Shown piece by piece: positions 27,776 to 35,363 of a DNA stretch of 57,579 bases; position 1 is the first letter of the stretch, and every line of letters starts with the position of its first letter. This DNA is from Polynucleobacter sp. (lineage in GTDB: Bacteria; Pseudomonadota; Gammaproteobacteria; Burkholderiales; Burkholderiaceae). The stretch covers positions 1 through 57,579 of the forward strand of contig JAUYRJ010000047.1 in assembly GCA_030696845.1 (NCBI GenBank), in the 5' to 3' direction. Position numbers and translations under genes: made by a program. Under the pieces are notes generated by a model. That model did not search any database and was not told the origin of the DNA. It worked only from the letters and a program-made list of their open reading frames with translations.

Positions 27776-28105
27776 ATGAGGGTGATGCGAAATGATGCCT
27801 ACATCCGATTTCTTAAGGCAACAGAGGGCCTTTCAGATCAACTCTCTGATCATGAACAGCAAATGTTGAATGAGATTATGAAGAGGGGAGACCGTCTTTT
27901 TCGGGTGCAAGAAATCATCGAGATGCGCGCGATTGCCTCACAGGCAACCTTGCACAAGGTGCTACTCAATTTAGTTCACAAAGGGTATGTCAGCCTCGAA
28001 CAATCCAAAGAGGACGGGCGCATTAAATACATTAAAGCCACCAAAAAAACAGATCAGCTACTAAACCGACTCAACACCTTACTCAAACAATCTACGACTG
28101 GTTAA
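27776..28105 (+). CDS. MarR-like winged-helix DNA-binding protein
   Basis: A 109-residue protein. HEQQMLNEIMKRGDRLFRVQEIIEMRAIASQATLHKVLLNLVHKGYVSLEQ reads as helix, then a helix-turn-helix with recognition helix (about 50-65), and a wing containing EDGRIKYIKATKKT. This is a MarR/winged-helix arrangement, small for MarR and lacking the usual long dimerisation helices. The start is uncertain: ATG 27776 or 27785; neither has an ideal ribosome site. Its stop overlaps that of the convergent HD-GYP gene (TTAA at 28102-28105). Target genes are unknown. Confidence 0.65.
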   Translation: MRVMRNDAYIRFLKATEGLSDQLSDHEQQMLNEIMKRGDRLFRVQEIIEMRAIASQATLHKVLLNLVHKGYVSLEQSKEDGRIKYIKATKKTDQLLNRLNTLLKQSTTG

Positions 28106-29475
28106 GTCATTTTGCCGACAGCGCCCTGTTGCCACACATACTCATTGGCGGCCTGTATGTCATCTTTAAATTGCTCGGCTATTAGAGTAAATTCATCTTG
28201 CGCGGCAATAAACGCATCGACGATAGCCGGATCAAAATGCGTTCCCTTGCAAGCCACAATCTCTTTTATTGCATCGGCGTATGCCCAGCCATGCTTGTAT
28301 GGTCTTTGCGAGACCAAGGCATCGTACATATCAGCCAAAGCCATAATGCGAGCCTCAAGCGGTATTGCTACACCGCGTAAACCACGAGGGTATCCCGTGC
28401 CATCCCATTTTTCATGATGCGCACCGGCAATCTGAATTGCCGCCTGAATCACCTGATCCCGCACACTGAGATTCGCCGCCGATGCGAGCAAAACCGATTC
28501 ACCAACCGCGGCATGGGTTTTCATGATGTCCCACTCATCCGCAGTAAGGGGCCCCGCCTTTAACAATATCGAATCTGGAATGGCCACTTTGCCAATATCG
28601 TGCAAAGGCGCTGCCTTGAACATCGCCTCAATGGCTTCATTACTTAATTTGTCTAGGTAATGGCCGCTTTCTCTCAATTGCTTCGCCAATGCGCGCACGT
28701 AATGCTGAGTGCGAATAATGTGATTGCCGGTCTCGTTGTCTCTCGCTAAAGCCAATTTCTCCAGAGCAAGCAGCATTTGGTCTTCTTTTTCATGCCGGCG
28801 CTGCTTTTCCGATGCGACCAATTGATCGTAATAAAAATTACTAATCGCAATGTAAATCAGGGCGTATAGCACCACCACGACAACCTGCGCAATAAACTCG
28901 GGGATACTTTCATTAAAGAAATGAAATTGCGTCCCGCCATACTCCGAAGAAGTAACAGTCCATATCCGAAAAAGCCACATCATGATTTGAGCGATAATCG
29001 CAACCAACAAAAACAAGATATAGATGGATGCAAATTTTCGGTATTGCTTATTTAATTCAATCAGCTGCCATACCGATAAAGTAATCGTGATCGTACTCAA
29101 ATAGACTACCTGAATTTCATAACCTTGATATAGCTCGATTAATCCTAAACCCATTCCAATCGGTAACAATGCCAATAAAGACAACATGACTACCCATTTT
29201 TTTGGTCTGGAATTTAGCGATTTAAATAGAAGGCACAGACCGATCTCGGCTGCTACCATCAGGAGGCTGCCGGATAATAAAGGCAGTGAATGCTTGAACA
29301 GGGGAAATAAAACCAGAACAAAGCAAGAGAGCGACATGCACAAGACGGAGAAAGCCCAAAATGCCTTCTGGCTGTGCAGTGGAAATTGCAGCTTGAGATT
29401 ATGATAAGTGTTAAAGCTCAGGCCAAAGAAAATTAAGCCAAACCCAAGGTACAAGACTTCATTGGCTAACTCCAT
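28102..29475 (-). CDS. Membrane HD-GYP domain protein (putative c-di-GMP phosphodiesterase)
   Basis: A 457-residue protein. The first about 215 residues hold seven or eight hydrophobic helices that I do not recognise as a named sensor domain. A short coiled linker (220-245) leads to the HD-GYP domain: ARDNETGNHIIRTQHY, HDIGK at 292-296 and HHEKWDGTGYP at 353-363, then GLRG and ALADMYDALVSQRPYK. All metal-binding and GYP residues are intact, so c-di-GMP hydrolysis is expected. It lies next to a GGDEF-EAL gene on the same strand (165-base gap), making this a local c-di-GMP signalling group. Confidence 0.9.
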   Translation of the reverse strand: MELANEVLYLGFGLIFFGLSFNTYHNLKLQFPLHSQKAFWAFSVLCMSLSCFVLVLFPLFKHSLPLLSGSLLMVAAEIGLCLLFKSLNSRPKKWVVMLSLLALLPIGMGLGLIELYQGYEIQVVYLSTITITLSVWQLIELNKQYRKFASIYILFLLVAIIAQIMMWLFRIWTVTSSEYGGTQFHFFNESIPEFIAQVVVVVLYALIYIAISNFYYDQLVASEKQRRHEKEDQMLLALEKLALARDNETGNHIIRTQHYVRALAKQLRESGHYLDKLSNEAIEAMFKAAPLHDIGKVAIPDSILLKAGPLTADEWDIMKTHAAVGESVLLASAANLSVRDQVIQAAIQIAGAHHEKWDGTGYPRGLRGVAIPLEARIMALADMYDALVSQRPYKHGWAYADAIKEIVACKGTHFDPAIVDAFIAAQDEFTLIAEQFKDDIQAANEYVWQQGAVGKMT

Positions 29476-29640
29476 GTGAAATCAGCCTTTTCAATCAGTG
29501 TTACAACGAACAGACAATGCATGACTTCTTTATAACAGTAAAAATGAAGGTGTTTAATATATATTTTTCAATTGACTCGATCTGCTAAGTGATCTGCGTA
29601 GGGCCACCCAATATGCAACACACCTTAGCATCTAATCCAG

Positions 29641-32283
29641 TCAGGATTCTTCTAAAACATGATGACGCATCGCACTCGAAAAATTGCCTTGCAGTATGGC
29701 ATCAATGGGTAATGCTTTAGCAAACAGAAAACCTTGTGCTTTGTAGCAGCCCAACTCGATTAGCATCTTTTTTTGCTCAACCGATTCGACGCCCTCAGCC
29801 GATATGTCCAGATTCAATGCTTTGGATAAACTGATAATACTTTCAATGATTTTTTTGTTGCCAGCCTCGTGATGTGCGGCAATGAATGCACAGTCAATCT
29901 TCAGTTTATGGATCGGCATATTACCGAGCCTAGATAAAGACGAATAGCCCTTACCAAAATCATCAATTGCAATTTTAATACCCAGACCAATAATGCAATC
30001 GAGTTGACTCGCCGCATCATCTGCGCTCTGGATCAATTCCGTTTCCGTAATTTCCATAATCAAACTGGAATAATCCAACTCGTCACTTAAGTGATCGGCC
30101 AAAATCTTAAATATTTTTCTATCCTTAAAGAGCTTTGGCGAAGAATTGAATGAAACTTTAGCGCCCTTAAATTGACTTGTAAGGATATTGAGGTCTCGCA
30201 AAATACCCTTCAGCATTGACTCCGTGACTTGCCCAATCAGGCCGCGTTGCTCAGCAATCGGAATAAACTCATCGGGGGGTATAAAGCCAAACTGCTCATC
30301 ATGCCATCGCGCGAGGGCTTCAAAACCAATGACTTCACCAGTGCGCATATCCACTTCGGGCTGATAGTAAGGAATGATGCGATGCTCCCTCAAGGCAATA
30401 ATCAGCTTGGTTTCAATGGCATTTCGTCTGGCAATTTGCTGTTTAACGCCATCATCAAACCAGGTCACCCGAGATCGACCGTTTTCTTTAGAAAACTGGA
30501 GTGCCGTATCGGCATAAATCAACAGGTCTTGAATATTTTTGGAATTATTCGGGTAAATGGAACCGCCCGAACTAAAACTGGATGAAATGGTGTTTTTAGA
30601 ATTCGCGCCGATCTCAATTTCCACGCTATGCAGGATGGCGGCGATCTCGACTTTCGTTTTTTCAATATCACCCCGAACTTCAACAATAGCAATGAACTCA
30701 TCACCGGAGCGACGGAACAGCAAATGCGGATTAGGCAAATTACACTTTAAATACTCGGATACCTGAAGGATAGCCACATCACCTTGTTCATGGTTATAGG
30801 TATCGTTAATACTTTTAAAGTGATCTAAATCGATAAACAACAGAATAAATGGGGTTTGCGCATCGGACTCCAACCGCTGCTTGACGTATTCCAAGAAAGC
30901 CCGGTAATTCGGTAGTGAGGTTAATTGATCTTCGTAAATTAATTTTTTGAGCTGTTCCTCAGCGGATTTAATAGGTCTAATATCCGAAAAAATAGCGACA
31001 TTACCCCGATTCACGCCCCGACCATCTATCAAAGTTGATATGGATAACATGGCTGGAATCTCCTCGCTTTGGGCTCCTATAAAGTAGGCCTCCCCTTTCC
31101 AGGACCCTTGCTCCCTAATCGCCACAGAAATGCGTTCATGCGTCATTTCTGAGGCATTGTTTCGGTATAAGATTCCCGCAGGCTTGCCGATCAAGTCCTC
31201 TTTTGAATACCCCGTCAGACTCAAAAGCGCCTGGTTTACATCCAGAATTTGTCCGCCAGTATCCGTGATCAGAATCGCCTCACCCGCAGTCTCAAACACC
31301 TTCGATGAAATCAACAGCTTTGCGTTGGATTCCTTTTGCAGGGCAAAAATCTTCTGAATCGATGTCAAGATCGTATCAATTTCATCTTGGCTATCCGTGG
31401 TTTCGCTGACGAAGTCCTCGCCTTTAGCGGCTTTCGACGCGGCCGTAACGAGGTCATTTAGGCGACTAGTCGTGTTTTGCGAAAACGTATAAGACCATTT
31501 TTTTAGGCTTAGAAAAACAAAGAGTCCGCCCAAGGCCGCAATCACAAACCCAATCAATACACCCACAAAGCCGCCCAAAATGGACTTGGAGACCCCTACC
31601 GATAAATCGATGACATGATCACCACCTTGAATGCGCACATCGCCCGTAACATTATTATCGCCAAATGTACTGACCGGCTTGTAATCGGGGGTATTGATAT
31701 TGATTTTTAAATAGGGTGGTAACTTCAAGGCGTCAATGCTGGCCTGGATGTCAAATCGAATGAGCAAAACGCCCAGCGCACTATCGGCAAAAGGAGCGAC
31801 GATGGGCAAGGCAATTAATAAATAGCGTTTTTGCGCCTCATCTAAAAACGCTGCTTGCATTTGATCGGTCTCCACCACCTGGCGCACTACCGGCAATGTC
31901 TCCCTTGTTTTCTCCGGAAAACTCTCTGTGATAATAAAATCTCGACCCCGGTAGTCTAATAAGTCCACCTTGTGTTTATTGGTTGCATTAATACGTTGCA
32001 ATAGGGGTCTTAAATAGGTATCCCGACCTTCTGAATCAGTCAACCCCGTCCAAATGACGGGTGAAGTACCCAGTGCGCTCGCCTCCCTGAGGGCCGCTGA
32101 AATATCAGCGTCGATCTTCGTTTTAACTAGGGTTTGATATTGAACGGTTTGATTGTGCTGATAAATGAGGATGCTGGTAATGGATAGAGCCAGAATCAGC
32201 GCTGTAGTCAATACTAAATAAGCGCCAATAATCTTAAAGAGTTTGACTCTAATTTGGTTTTGCAGTGACTGAGGCTTAATCAT
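29641..32283 (-). CDS. CHASE4-like / PAS / GGDEF / EAL membrane protein
   Basis: An 880-residue transmembrane signalling protein. Membrane helices at about 18-41 and 237-260 enclose a periplasmic domain (about 42-235) resembling CHASE4. A PAS domain follows (about 328-440), then GGDEF (about 447-610) with SGDEF at 526-530, and EAL (about 622-870). In the EAL domain EAL 655-657, N713, E744, DDFG 774-777, K795 and E830 are all present, so phosphodiesterase activity is expected. The first glycine of GGDEF is serine, which can still be active in some enzymes. Its ATG overlaps the stop of the binding-protein gene by one base (TAATG), so the two are translationally coupled. Confidence 0.92.
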   Translation of the reverse strand: MIKPQSLQNQIRVKLFKIIGAYLVLTTALILALSITSILIYQHNQTVQYQTLVKTKIDADISAALREASALGTSPVIWTGLTDSEGRDTYLRPLLQRINATNKHKVDLLDYRGRDFIITESFPEKTRETLPVVRQVVETDQMQAAFLDEAQKRYLLIALPIVAPFADSALGVLLIRFDIQASIDALKLPPYLKININTPDYKPVSTFGDNNVTGDVRIQGGDHVIDLSVGVSKSILGGFVGVLIGFVIAALGGLFVFLSLKKWSYTFSQNTTSRLNDLVTAASKAAKGEDFVSETTDSQDEIDTILTSIQKIFALQKESNAKLLISSKVFETAGEAILITDTGGQILDVNQALLSLTGYSKEDLIGKPAGILYRNNASEMTHERISVAIREQGSWKGEAYFIGAQSEEIPAMLSISTLIDGRGVNRGNVAIFSDIRPIKSAEEQLKKLIYEDQLTSLPNYRAFLEYVKQRLESDAQTPFILLFIDLDHFKSINDTYNHEQGDVAILQVSEYLKCNLPNPHLLFRRSGDEFIAIVEVRGDIEKTKVEIAAILHSVEIEIGANSKNTISSSFSSGGSIYPNNSKNIQDLLIYADTALQFSKENGRSRVTWFDDGVKQQIARRNAIETKLIIALREHRIIPYYQPEVDMRTGEVIGFEALARWHDEQFGFIPPDEFIPIAEQRGLIGQVTESMLKGILRDLNILTSQFKGAKVSFNSSPKLFKDRKIFKILADHLSDELDYSSLIMEITETELIQSADDAASQLDCIIGLGIKIAIDDFGKGYSSLSRLGNMPIHKLKIDCAFIAAHHEAGNKKIIESIISLSKALNLDISAEGVESVEQKKMLIELGCYKAQGFLFAKALPIDAILQGNFSSAMRHHVLEES

Positions 32284-33488
32284 TACTCAATCGGAACAAG
32301 ATTGCCATTACGCGCAATCGAAACAAAAATCACATTCTTTTTGCTAAGCGCATCGTGATTTTCTTTTGTGAATGCCGGAGCATAATCGCGTATAGCCCCT
32401 TTATATTCTGGCAATTCTTCCAGTGCATTGCGAATCTGCTCGCGATTGCTGGACTTGGCCTTTTGTATTGCCAACGCTAGCAGGTGCACCGCATCGTAGG
32501 CTTGAGCAACGCCCACCGGACTCAGTATGTCAGCGTTCGATTCGAGTTTATTGTTCTTTTTGACCTGCTCCGCCAAATACCGCGCTTTTGGTCGGTTGTT
32601 ATTGATAAACGAAAAAGTTTGAATCACGTCAACCTGAATTTTTCCTAAATCATCACCAACCAGTTCGTGTATCGCACCACCCGATACCCCCCAATGGGAC
32701 ACAATGGGTAAGCGCTTAATGGCTGGCAAGGCGGCGATTTCCTTAAATAAAATCGCCCCTTCTTTTTCGTTTCCCACAAACAATAGGGCTTTACCACCCG
32801 CATCCAAGCATTCTTTGTAGGCTTGCGTAAAACTACTATCGCCCCAGTTGTACCACCGGATAGTCGAAAAATTAACGCCATATGCAGACGATTTTGACTT
32901 GATGACGTTATCAGCCGACCTACCCCACGACGTGCTCGGTAAAAAGGCGCAGGCATTTTTTGCTATGTATTTTTTAGCAATTCGCTCAATCATCGCCTCG
33001 ACGCCCCACTCATCTTTGAGTGACACTCGGAAGGAATACGATGGCTTGTAGCTATGATCCGTAATCTGATCGGCAGAACCCCATACAGAAATCAATGGCA
33101 GTTTAAGCCGATGCGCTTCTGGAAGCGTTTCCACTGAAATGGGACTGTACTTCCCTCCTAAAACCGCGACGATGTCCTTTTGTTGCGACAACTCAATAAA
33201 GTTATCTTTACCGCGCGCAGTGACTCCCTTATTGTCGGATTTAATCAATTTGAGGGGTCTGCCGTTTAAAACGCCGCCTGCTTGATTAATTTCATCGATG
33301 GCAACGATCATGCCCGCTTCGATTGCTTGGGGTGCTGTGTTGGTTTTTTGCCCATAGGCCCCATCAAAACCAATATAAATAGGTGCCTGCTCAGAGCCGG
33401 TCACTTGACTATGTGAGGCGGATGCAATGACAGATAAAACAACACAAATAATAGCCTTCACTTCATTACCCCGATACTTGTAGTTCAT
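32283..33488 (-). CDS. Periplasmic ligand-binding protein (branched-chain amino-acid receptor type), coupled to a GGDEF-EAL protein
   Basis: A 401-residue exported type I periplasmic binding protein (Peripla_BP_6). The signal region is about residues 8-28. Characteristic features are IYIGFDGAYGQ, AIDEINQAGGVLNGRPLKLI, VLGGKYSPISVETLPEAHRLKLPLISVWGS, and the hinge segment KGAIRDY. No permease or ATPase genes for an ABC transporter are near. Its stop overlaps the start of the membrane GGDEF-EAL protein, so it probably presents a ligand to that protein's periplasmic domain instead of serving transport. The start at ATG 33488 precedes a basic N-terminus (MNYKYRGNEVK); a start inside it is possible. 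Confidence 0.88.
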   Translation of the reverse strand: MNYKYRGNEVKAIICVVLSVIASASHSQVTGSEQAPIYIGFDGAYGQKTNTAPQAIEAGMIVAIDEINQAGGVLNGRPLKLIKSDNKGVTARGKDNFIELSQQKDIVAVLGGKYSPISVETLPEAHRLKLPLISVWGSADQITDHSYKPSYSFRVSLKDEWGVEAMIERIAKKYIAKNACAFLPSTSWGRSADNVIKSKSSAYGVNFSTIRWYNWGDSSFTQAYKECLDAGGKALLFVGNEKEGAILFKEIAALPAIKRLPIVSHWGVSGGAIHELVGDDLGKIQVDVIQTFSFINNNRPKARYLAEQVKKNNKLESNADILSPVGVAQAYDAVHLLALAIQKAKSSNREQIRNALEELPEYKGAIRDYAPAFTKENHDALSKKNVIFVSIARNGNLVPIE

Positions 33489-33830
33489 GTGCCTTACACC
33501 ATGCCAAGCAAATGAACCGCATTGGCATTCATTTTAAAGGAAATTAGCATAATCAAAATGCTGTGTAAGGTTACTAGTATATAAATCTGGTATCAATAGT
33601 AGATAAATACCAAATCAAATAAATTCAATATAAATACTTAGCCTGGAATCGCATTCCAGGGATAATCGAAGGGGGCGAGGTGCAATCAAGCCTTACAGGC
33701 ATAAATAAAAACAATGACCGCCACCTATCTAATTCACAGAAGGTCATTCTGGGCGCTTTACTCACGGCGCTCATTTTCGTTATCAGTCCCATTGCATCCT
33801 TCGCAAATACGATACCAACTCAGGCTCCAT
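33489..33830. other. 342-base AT-rich region between the binding-protein gene and the photolyase 3' end
   Basis: The region is AT-rich and should contain the promoter for the binding-protein/GGDEF-EAL operon (minus strand, near 33500-33600). It also holds a perfect inverted repeat at 33642-33660 and the beginning of a candidate small ORF at 33680. No other gene is seen. Confidence 0.5.
33642..33660. repeat. Perfect 8-bp inverted repeat
   Basis: CCTGGAAT at 33642-33649 and ATTCCAGG at 33653-33660 flank a 3-base spacer. There is no following T tract, so it is more like an operator or a small RNA hairpin. It lies 19 bases upstream of the candidate small ORF at 33680. Confidence 0.5.
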
Positions 33831-33895
33831 TCAAAACTCAAACCCCAGTTGCTGATGGTTTGTTCCCTTCTTTTTTTTGCCCATTCTTCGCTTGA
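33680..33895 (+). CDS. Candidate small exported protein, overlapping the photolyase 3' end
   Basis: GTG at 33680, preceded by aaggggg at 33669-33675, opens a 71-residue frame. Residues 20-45 (KVILGALLTALIFVISPIASFA) form a plausible signal peptide or membrane helix with a basic N-terminal region. The last 65 bases are antisense to the 3' end of the photolyase gene. No family is recognised. The signal-like segment and ribosome site make it worth listing, but it could be chance. Confidence 0.3.
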   Translation: MQSSLTGINKNNDRHLSNSQKVILGALLTALIFVISPIASFANTIPTQAPFKTQTPVADGLFPSFFCPFFA

Positions 33896-35357
33896 TTGAA
33901 TTTGATCTCGAAGCATGTTTCTGAATAACGCCTTGCTTGCCTGCTTTTACTGAAGGCGATTTTTTGCGGCTGTGAAGGCGGTCTTTTGCATTTCGGATTG
34001 CATCCTCTAGATGCACAATGGGTTTAATGATGCGGCTTTCGCCTTGCAGGCCTAGATGATCTTGAATTTCAGGGGTCATTTTCCAGGGCTCAAAAAGCCA
34101 CGTATCTGGAATGGGACGCATCCGCGGCAACCATTTTTTTACAAAGATACCGCGAGGATCGTGATCTTGAGCCTGTTTAATGGGGTTATACACTCGCGTT
34201 GTGTTAATGCCTGTGGTGCCAGATTGCATTTGCAATTGGCTCCAATGAATACCGGGCTCGTAATCGAGGAACTGGGTCGCGAGCCACTCTCCAACTGGGC
34301 GCCAATGAAGCCATAAGGGATAAGCTGCCACTGAAACCAGCATGGCCCGCATTCTAAAATTGAGCCAGCCCGTTTCTTTGAGCATCACAACACACGCATC
34401 CACCATGGGCCATCCAGTTTGAGCAGCTTTTAATGCCTCAAAGTACTCTTGGTTAAATTCTGCCTCGCGTAAGCCGTTATAGCCTGGGTGCATATTGCGC
34501 CACTCAATCTCGGGCTCACTTTCGAGTTTTTGGATAAAGTGGCAGTGCCAATGCAGGCGACTCAAAAAGGTAATTAGACCAGCCCGATGTCGCTCCGCAC
34601 CACTAGGCAGTTCAATGATTTTTTGCCGAGTGCGTTGAACGACTTCTCGCATGCTAATGCAGCCGTAGCTTAAATACACCGATAGTCGAGAGCATGCATC
34701 AGGGGCGCTGAGCGGTGAAGAGATACCACCGCGATAGCCTATGCTTCGGGCATTTAGAAAACTATTTAGTGTCGGTATCGCCAGACTTCGACCGCCCCGT
34801 TGACGCATCGGCGGATTGTGTTTTAAGTGACTTGGGGCCTCCATCAGAACAGGCCTGGGCTCATAGCGTTTCCAAAAACGGAGCACTGAAATCGCCTGTA
34901 CGGGCATAGCCATATGTTTTTCCCATACGCGTTGCCATACATCGCGATTCTTTAAACCCCGCACTACTCCAAACTGAGGGTATTCAGTCCAAACTACACG
35001 GTGTTGCTTACACCATGCAGCCACATGTTGATCACGTTTATATGTAAATTGATTGCCGGTCTCTTCATGGGAGTGGATTCTTAAAAATGGTTCCACTTGC
35101 CAAATTTTAGATAAAACAGCAGTAGCATCACCGTGATGAATTTCTAAAGAGCCGCCATGAGCGCGCAATTGAGCATCTACTTCGATAATGGATTCGCGGA
35201 TAAATTCAAAATGCTGAAGCGCGACATCGCTTTGGGCCCAAAGCATCGGCTCAACAATATAGATACACCGAATGGGTCTAGTACGCGCTGCTTGCATGAG
35301 CGGCGCATGATCCTCACAACGCAAGTCGCGCTTAAACCAAACTAGGTCATAACTCAT
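33831..35357 (-). CDS. Cryptochrome/photolyase family protein
   Basis: A 508-residue protein with the photolyase layout: an N-terminal antenna-binding domain (YDLVWFKRDLRCEDHAPLMQAA), then an alpha-helical FAD domain with GGISSPLSAPDACSRLSVYLSYGCIS, FLSRLHWHCHFIQ, TGWPMVDACVVMLKETGWLNFRMRAML and the W-rich DYEPGIHWSQLQMQSGTTG. It is expected to repair UV-induced pyrimidine dimers in light, or to act as a photoreceptor. A basic tail (about 455-505, rich in Arg, Lys and Ser) extends beyond the usual end and may bind DNA. ATG 35357 is chosen; TTG 35363 is a near alternative. Subclass cannot be settled by eye. Confidence 0.9.
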   Translation of the reverse strand: MSYDLVWFKRDLRCEDHAPLMQAARTRPIRCIYIVEPMLWAQSDVALQHFEFIRESIIEVDAQLRAHGGSLEIHHGDATAVLSKIWQVEPFLRIHSHEETGNQFTYKRDQHVAAWCKQHRVVWTEYPQFGVVRGLKNRDVWQRVWEKHMAMPVQAISVLRFWKRYEPRPVLMEAPSHLKHNPPMRQRGGRSLAIPTLNSFLNARSIGYRGGISSPLSAPDACSRLSVYLSYGCISMREVVQRTRQKIIELPSGAERHRAGLITFLSRLHWHCHFIQKLESEPEIEWRNMHPGYNGLREAEFNQEYFEALKAAQTGWPMVDACVVMLKETGWLNFRMRAMLVSVAAYPLWLHWRPVGEWLATQFLDYEPGIHWSQLQMQSGTTGINTTRVYNPIKQAQDHDPRGIFVKKWLPRMRPIPDTWLFEPWKMTPEIQDHLGLQGESRIIKPIVHLEDAIRNAKDRLHSRKKSPSVKAGKQGVIQKHASRSNSIKRRMGKKKKGTNHQQLGFEF

Positions 35358-35363
35358 TAGCAA

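Follow-up and report, generated by a model that had tools for sequence, protein, structure and literature searches.

In Vibrio cholerae and Sinorhizobium meliloti, the gene of the solute-binding protein (SBP) NspS, a PotD homolog that senses polyamines, lies immediately upstream of that of MbaA, with an overlap of 16 or 3 bp. V. cholerae MbaA is a membrane receptor with SGDEF and EAL-type domains; its control of c-di-GMP depends on the SBP, and the SGDEF variant is required for the polyamine response. PruR–DcpA and PruR–DTB are two-gene operons for a periplasmic binder and a receptor with one conserved periplasmic domain, and their outputs are GGDEF-EAL enzymes or sensor kinases. PruR is a pterin-binding protein of SUOX-type fold, and DcpA carries a WX7E motif. 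In LuxP–LuxQ, a two-lobed periplasmic binding protein sits on a tandem PAS/Cache-type sensor. Adjacency alone, however, has misled elsewhere: Cerna-Vargas and Krell report neighbouring SBP and kinase genes of P. aeruginosa for whose products no interaction was detected.

Here we describe an SBP–receptor gene pair in the window, i.e., the whole stretch of 57,579 nucleotides of Polynucleobacter sp. DNA that was analysed (Table 1). As with NspS–MbaA, the SBP gene comes first and lies directly upstream of that of a GGDEF-EAL membrane receptor. By analogy, the pair would work like NspS–MbaA and PruR–DcpA, but from different parts, and SBP-dependent c-di-GMP control is what we propose for it. Its SBP belongs to Peripla_BP_6, unlike NspS, and whereas the output of MbaA is c-di-GMP, the partner in the pair family studied here is often a histidine kinase, so that GGDEF-EAL and kinase outputs both occur as in the PruR systems. 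In contrast to PruR, the binder is a type 1 SBP, as judged from Pfam and from the matches of a relative's model to type 1 SBPs. The sensor is without the WX7E motif of DcpA, because W78, the sole tryptophan in residues 41–235, is followed by G at +8. The two-lobed binding protein and the sensor type recall LuxP–LuxQ, which differs in its ligand AI-2, its SBP family and its restriction to kinase output. Among the papers listed by literature searches, we recognised none describing this pair of an SBP and a double Cache receptor.

Table 1. Features of the gene pair and its neighbour, in window coordinates
Feature	Position	Strand	Basis and remarks
Solute-binding protein (SBP), 401 aa, Peripla_BP_6	32283..33488	(-)	ORF, Pfam
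TAATG overlap	32281-32285 (+ strand numbering)	read on (-)	sequence; SBP stop TAA and receptor start ATG with one base in common
Receptor, 880 aa: TM1, double Cache sensor, TM2, PAS, SGDEF, EAL	29641..32283	(-)	ORF, Pfam, AlphaFold, hydropathy
Predicted periplasmic double Cache sensor, residues ~41-235	31579..32163	(-)	AlphaFold, hydropathy; between TM1 (~22-40) and TM2 (~240-258)
Pair signature D83-S-x-G-R-x-x-Y-L-x-P93 of the sensor	32005..32037	(-)	alignment
PAS, residues 335-435	30979..31281	(-)	Pfam
GGDEF, residues 451-605, signature RRSGDEF	30469..30933	(-)	Pfam, motif check
EAL, residues 629-856	29716..30399	(-)	Pfam, motif check
HD-GYP membrane protein, 457 aa	28102..29475	(-)	HD_5, 109.7 bits; 165 bp downstream of receptor; the genome's only HD_5 match

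The sequence-only reading had located the TAATG overlap correctly, and this arrangement would couple translation of the two proteins; its term "translationally fused" does not fit, since these are separate, overlapping reading frames. It was also right that no ABC permease genes lie nearby: tblastn with LivH and LivM of the same genome gave no match anywhere in the window at E ≤ 1e-3. Promoter-like sites (12 versus a shuffle mean of 14.9) and terminator-like sites (7 versus 8.4 in shuffles) showed no excess.

The cytoplasmic part of the receptor, read earlier as PAS, SGDEF and a complete EAL domain, was confirmed by Pfam and motifs. With EALARW, MEITE, DDFGKG and AEGVE all present, the EAL domain matches the conserved active-site motifs of c-di-GMP phosphodiesterases, a putative activity here. 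The GG(D/E)EF position reads SGDEF, and no RxxD I-site was seen by eye in the GGDEF domain. The periplasmic part had been called CHASE4-like, an identity that we reject: Pfam gave no CHASE4 match at E ≤ 0.1, and the predicted fold (AlphaFold pLDDT 89.9) is a double Cache fold that matches KinD with Z 17.4 over 188 residues and DctB with Z 16.0 over 186. Pfam dCache_1 had no match in the window at E ≤ 0.1, and in three of ten relatives it scored 17–23 bits against a cut-off of 45. LuxQ is absent among the 50 matches listed of the sensor-fold searches, which carries no weight either way.

The SBP has a signal-peptide-like N-terminal stretch at residues ~12–30 by hydropathy, and it scores 94.8 bits with Peripla_BP_6 (PF13458; curated cut-off 31.7). 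Peripla_BP_6, ANF_receptor and Peripla_BP_5 were its only Pfam matches at E ≤ 0.1, and the polyamine-binding PotD family was not matched. With liv-type ABC binding proteins it shares the sequence family and, via the SBP model of the relative L089, the fold; these proteins are encoded alongside LivH/M permeases and LivG/F ATPases in transporter operons, however, and the window SBP does not lie in such an operon. In the SBP tree, one branch (SH-aLRT 99) splits 89 pair-type from 19 ABC-group SBPs, and the window SBP falls inside the pair clade; locus L078 was left out of the tree and of the mirror tree described below. Judged from sequence, R190 (89/89 paired, at most 1/19 ABC-group SBPs) and W212 (88/89 and 0/19) are clade-specific residues of paired SBPs. 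The branched-chain amino acid implied earlier as ligand found no support: the nearest solved structure to the L089 SBP model, 4q6w (Z 42.7, 24% identity), has 3-hydroxybenzoate bound, and an aromatic or other organic acid is at least as likely a putative ligand.

Of the 80 relatives that match the paired SBP best, from genomes labelled as five phyla, 76 have a sensor of this type encoded next downstream. At the four exceptions, the contig ends (L077) or the sequence continues with no sensor next downstream (L084, L095, L137). In 73 of the 76 pairs, the SBP stop lies within 30 nt of the nearest start codon. Searching sensor-first, with profiles built from paired sequences, an SBP was found upstream in 24 of 29 other genomes (12/13 in the order and 13/17 in the class, one genome being common to both), and five receptors of the sensor family stood without an SBP. 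The signature D-x-x-G-R-x-x-Y was complete in 63 of 75 aligned paired sensors, 12 deviating, and in 13 of 15 further paired ones. An apparent natural fusion of SBP and receptor in L067 was discarded, because the SBP frame merely overruns its end, which looks like a frameshift.

Conservation of the pair in relatives, on which the sequence-only reading had depended, thus stood in both search directions but not close to home. A pair-type SBP was absent from the 185 other genomes of the genus and was not seen in those other genomes of the bacterial family whose matches were inspected; no receptor match (E ≤ 1e-8) lay beside the 29 best SBP loci of the family. We dropped this absence as a refutation, as the sensor-first searches found the pair elsewhere. 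Similarly, the best SBP matches within the family (32–35% identity) do lie in liv-type ABC operons, a setting that by the earlier reading would count against it, but they fall outside the pair clade.

The receptors of the 76 pairs end in a kinase (45), GGDEF-EAL (12), GGDEF (9) or something outside these classes (10), the last comprising kinase domains of other types (L119, L127, L152), PAS/GAF matches only (L145, L149) and cut or short reading frames (L078, L080, L098, L104, L117). On a tree whose labelled rows comprise 54 with kinase and 24 with c-di-GMP output, 11 output changes are needed, at least six being forced by starred branches. As far as this tree tells, histidine kinase, GGDEF and GGDEF-EAL outputs have been exchanged at least six times behind a conserved SBP–sensor pair. 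In a mirror tree (n = 33; two of the 76 pairs left out), distances of SBP and sensor correlated with r 0.87, compared with 0.58 for SBP and kinase and 0.58 for sensor and kinase of one protein, a difference of 0.29 (95%, 0.09–0.46); shared ancestry inflates these correlations, and the kinase control takes away only part of it. Since related pairs recur across many bacteria while other signalling parts take the place of the enzyme, it is very probable that SBP and receptor work jointly as a single sensor.

Furthermore, an interface between the two, as the physical coupling suspected earlier would demand, was predicted for a relative: the linked SBP–sensor AlphaFold model of L089 (11 linked rows) reached a pTM of 0.84, where ~0.6 is what we would expect without docking, an expectation and not a control. 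By extension, SBP and sensor of the window pair would also bind physically. A single solved chain, 5ere, the 540-residue 'extracellular ligand binding receptor' of Desulfohalobium retbaense, appears to match both halves, because its residues 352–593 match the sensor and Foldseek aligns the linked model to it over 661 columns. The halves are placed differently, however (rmsd 26.8), and 5ere is absent among the matches listed (60 of 139) for paired SBP sequences.

That two unrelated genes merely happen to be neighbours might be thought from the single occurrence of a pair-type SBP among 186 genomes of the genus and from the ABC-linked best matches in the family, yet chance is scarcely credible because the same gene order recurs in nearly all relatives and from either search direction. 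Alternatively, the SBP could feed a liv-type ABC transporter encoded elsewhere and simply be co-transcribed with the receptor. The genome does hold, on contig C4, a complete liv-type operon that includes an SBP gene; its transporter could use the window SBP, and the family homologs are transporter-linked. LivH and LivM, however, occur at none of the 80 pair-type loci in the flanking sequence covered, the pairing persists while outputs change, and the window SBP groups in the pair clade and not with the ABC group (the C4 SBP, which did not match the SBP profile over a sufficient length, was too distant for this tree). We hence regard a pure transport role as improbable; the SBP may nevertheless serve both transport and signalling.

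It is just as unlikely, in our view, that the double Cache domain itself binds the small molecule, as in KinD and DctB, with the SBP only buffering or delivering it outside any signalling complex. The closest solved folds are indeed ligand-binding Cache domains, and some receptors manage without an SBP; the full signature is found in none of those five unpaired sensors, though, SBP and sensor co-diverge more tightly than sensor and kinase of one protein, and the linked model suggests docking. The earlier proposal that a soluble binding protein passes the signal of a ligand on to a c-di-GMP enzyme is thus best supported, by recurrence, the separate clade and the relative's linked model. We consider a split receptor likely: the SBP, probably exported to the periplasm, would bind a small molecule there and dock on the double Cache domain of its partner, the product of the overlapping downstream gene. 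By docking, either the ligand-bound or the ligand-free SBP would shift the SGDEF/EAL balance in the cytoplasm and so set c-di-GMP. By analogy with MbaA, the ground state of the receptor without its SBP would be that of a phosphodiesterase. We infer this function for the pair in the present strain.

The 1.95 Mb genome has two GGDEF, one EAL and one HD_5 match in Pfam, the receptor being the only EAL match (E ≤ 0.001). The HD-GYP gene noted earlier next door is indeed there, although it does not belong to a conserved unit, a homolog lying near the pair in only two of 80 relatives. A PilZ or MshEN effector was looked for and not found, which counts against the c-di-GMP split receptor. Like the receptor gene, the second GGDEF gene overlaps one for an SBP. 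Tentatively, and with slightly more doubt than trust, we propose that SBP and double Cache sensor form an old, mobile split-receptor module, two separate proteins as one evolutionary unit with exchanged kinase, cyclase and phosphodiesterase outputs, and that in this streamlined genome the c-di-GMP network has come under the control of binding proteins. Since each of the two GGDEF proteins, including the sole EAL protein, is encoded in an overlapping pair with a binding protein, c-di-GMP would on this proposal convey hardly anything but extracellular solutes.

The great majority of bacterial receptors have no known signal (PMC11113362). If the signal is read here by a separate soluble, purifiable protein, ligand screening of the SBP would show directly what the receptor responds to, and the result may extend to kinases and cyclases bearing the same sensor. 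If the signature of the sensor marks the docking site, it would help to find SBP-dependent receptors from sequence. With its few c-di-GMP genes, this small genome would be a simple test system for a c-di-GMP circuit driven by binding proteins.

The pair of a solute-binding protein (SBP) gene and a downstream receptor gene is real and conserved. The SBP gene comes first, and its stop codon shares one base with the receptor start in TAATG. Hydropathy indicates a signal-peptide-like stretch at SBP residues ~12-30 and transmembrane segments at receptor residues ~22-40 and ~240-258; an additional hydrophobic stretch at 157-177 lies within the folded sensor (hydropathy and AlphaFold), the receptor's periplasmic domain. 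The receptor carries the GGDEF signature RRSGDEF and all EAL motifs checked, and past the receptor gene, after a gap of 165 bp, comes a gene for an HD-GYP protein in the same orientation. The overlap, the PAS, SGDEF and EAL domains, the HD-GYP neighbor and the lack of nearby ABC permease genes, all proposed in the sequence-only reading, were thus confirmed, the last by the absence from the window of homologs of LivH and LivM, the permeases of liv-type (branched-chain amino acid type) transporters. Matches resembling the LivG/F ATPases, at 7.4-8.8 kb of the window, all fall inside a single 639-aa ORF, which we infer to encode an ABC-F-type ATPase. GC content is 0.44-0.48 in the pair, HD-GYP and photolyase genes (28102-35363) versus 0.51-0.56 in nine other, hand-picked window genes, a difference that fits, weakly, with a gain of this stretch by transfer.

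Coordinates of the SBP-receptor pair and of the second SBP-cyclase locus of the genome
Feature	Position	Strand	Length	Remarks
SBP gene	32283-33488	-	401 aa	Peripla_BP_6, 94.8 bits (Pfam)
Receptor gene	29641-32283	-	880 aa	PAS, GGDEF, EAL (Pfam)
Second GGDEF gene and PF12974 (phosphonate-type) SBP gene	L177:2237-4250, contig C65 (outside the window)			11-nt overlap, SBP upstream

Conservation of the pair in relatives, as had been anticipated, holds outside the family but not in the genus, where the pair-type SBP, i.e., that of the clade containing the window's, is confined to the window's own genome among 186 genomes. In the order (399 genomes), the sensor alone matches 13 others (E <= 0.001), 12 of them with an SBP homolog of 32-50% identity directly upstream (exception L064). 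When 369 genomes of the class are searched with a 75-sensor profile, 17 others match (E <= 1e-10). The SBP precedes the sensor in 13 of these; the weakest matches, L192-L195, have no SBP within the 1.5 kb upstream examined. Merging both sets, which have one genome (G346) in common, places an SBP upstream of the sensor in 24 of 29 other genomes. Conversely, a search of named genomes that started from the SBP yielded 351 relatives, and the sensor is next downstream in 76 of the best 80 that were retained. L077 stops at the contig edge, at L084 the sensor match lies upstream, and L095 and L137 have no sensor match beside the SBP. By record title and lineage, these 80, many of them metagenome bins, include Pseudomonadota, Thermodesulfobacteriota, Myxococcota, Nitrospirota and one Campylobacterota-labelled record. 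The nearest pair relative, Limnohabitans sp. Hippo3, has an SBP of 61% identity and a GGDEF-EAL receptor.

Some relatives deviate in gene structure. In both L068:7158-9320 and L071:6375-8549, the sensor is preceded by a ~720-aa ORF that has the SBP at its end and is extended N-terminally by ~320 aa. At L067 (~6670) the 3' end of the SBP frame lacks a stop codon and stays open, suggestive of a frameshift. Kinase matches also occur just upstream of the SBP at L091 and L098, at L091 together with a weak sensor match, suggesting tandem receptor clusters.

Within the family, SBP matches (E <= 1e-10; 121 of 299 genomes, the window's counted in) have a different context. LivH adjoins the SBP in all 29 best family loci, the window's excluded, and a liv-type operon is present in 17 of 18 longer regions (exception L046), eight of the 18 coming from the same loci as the 29. 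Four other genus genomes have SBP matches at E <= 1e-40, each with LivH beside it (L004, L154-L156). The expectation that the SBP is not routinely found beside ABC permeases therefore failed for the best family loci, but it stood for pair-type SBPs, which form a separate clade. In a quick IQ-TREE analysis of 108 SBPs (SH-aLRT support, no bootstrap), one branch (SH-aLRT 99) splits the 19 SBPs of the ABC group, drawn from the family search and including L046, from all 89 pair-type SBPs. The four SBPs without a downstream sensor are among these 89, and the window SBP is sister to Limnohabitans (SH-aLRT 99); L047, L068 and L156 sit on long branches, and the window's sequence is atypical in residue composition. 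R190 occurs in 89/89 paired SBPs versus at most 1/19 ABC-group rows, W212 in 88/89 versus 0/19.

The window sensor is unrecognized by Pfam, and 3 of 10 relatives give a dCache_1 match that stays below cut-off. It is predicted to be a double Cache fold, because its AlphaFold model (pLDDT 89.9, pTM 0.78; 75 aligned sensors, the window's as first row) comes nearest, among solved folds, to the KinD sensor (Z 17.4) and to DctB (Z 16.0). Among these 75 sensors, selected by pairing with an SBP, D83 (75), G86 (69), R87 (69), Y90 (73) and P93 (73) are conserved. The full D-x-x-G-R-x-x-Y motif occurs in 63 of the 75, in 13 of 15 further paired and in none of five unpaired sensors, four of which (L192-L195) are also the most distant. 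These four are GGDEF proteins whose Cache sensor is related but lacks the motif. We hypothesize that D-x-x-G-R-x-x-Y might mark a docking site.

Sequence distances argue for SBP and sensor as the co-evolving unit. Over 33 kinase pairs, the correlation is 0.87 between SBP and sensor, 0.58 between SBP and kinase core, and just 0.58 between sensor and kinase core despite their common polypeptide; the bootstrap correlation difference is 0.29 (0.09-0.46). With close pairs removed, the three values are 0.78, 0.54 and 0.55. Partial correlations are 0.80 for SBP-sensor given the kinase and 0.20 for sensor-kinase given the SBP. Across the full set of 74 usable pairs, the correlation is 0.73 by Pearson and 0.52 by Spearman; the Pearson permutation maximum is 0.09, with permutation ignoring shared ancestry. 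The outputs of 76 receptors comprise 45 histidine kinases, 12 GGDEF-EAL, 9 GGDEF only and 10 without class, and Pfam confirmed the three named types in sampled receptors. When 54 rows are assigned to kinase and 24 to c-di-GMP output, the SBP tree requires at least 11 output changes (6 forced by starred branches) versus 20.6 with shuffled labels; outputs are therefore partly inherited and repeatedly exchanged.

Since the window's SBP and receptor frames do not join, docking was modelled on L089, a Thiohalocapsa bin locus with the same output, its natural stop read as glycine (11 linked rows, including L089 itself, plus 80 single rows). For this relative, the prediction suggests the anticipated docking: the linked AlphaFold model reached pLDDT 91.9 and pTM 0.84, with a disordered linker at 369-403, versus a calculated pTM of 0.57-0.66 for unplaced domains; 0.84 requires an inter-domain error of ~5 A. 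Its SBP half is closest to 4q6w, with 3-hydroxybenzoate bound (Z 42.7). Structure 5ere aligns with the linked model across 661 columns at rmsd 26.8 (Foldseek), and the sensor alone matches its residues 352-593 with Z 15.2; from these models, 5ere reads as a natural one-chain combination of SBP and sensor, differently arranged.

The NspS gene likewise lies upstream of and overlaps that of MbaA, whose SGDEF and EVL motifs are both required for the polyamine response and which is a constitutive phosphodiesterase without NspS (PMC8079147, PMC9993111). The window pair shares this gene order and an SGDEF-bearing receptor, but its binder family differs. PruR-DcpA/DTB combines a binder with a receptor of one periplasmic domain and c-di-GMP or kinase output (PMC13259868), as across the pair's relatives; however, the binder family again differs, and the DcpA WX7E motif is absent from the window sensor. 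The pair would work in a similar way but belongs to neither system. As a counter-example, work on P. aeruginosa describes adjacent SBP and kinase genes with interaction undetected (PMC11113362).

The c-di-GMP protein set of this genome (99% complete, 86 contigs) is very small. Whole-genome Pfam searches (E <= 0.001) matched two GGDEF proteins, one EAL and one HD_5, and neither PilZ nor MshEN, although either model gave matches in 5 of 14 control genomes. In the genus, 67 of 186 genomes, the window's counted in, have an EAL match above cut-off. For the PF12974 SBP, the same cyclase sensor region adjoins in 18 of 19 other genus loci (18 genomes, E <= 1e-40). From the gene order of the pair and of the C65 locus it follows that each of the two GGDEF proteins is SBP-linked, including the one that is also the sole EAL protein. 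In the window's pair, SBP and receptor probably function as a split receptor.
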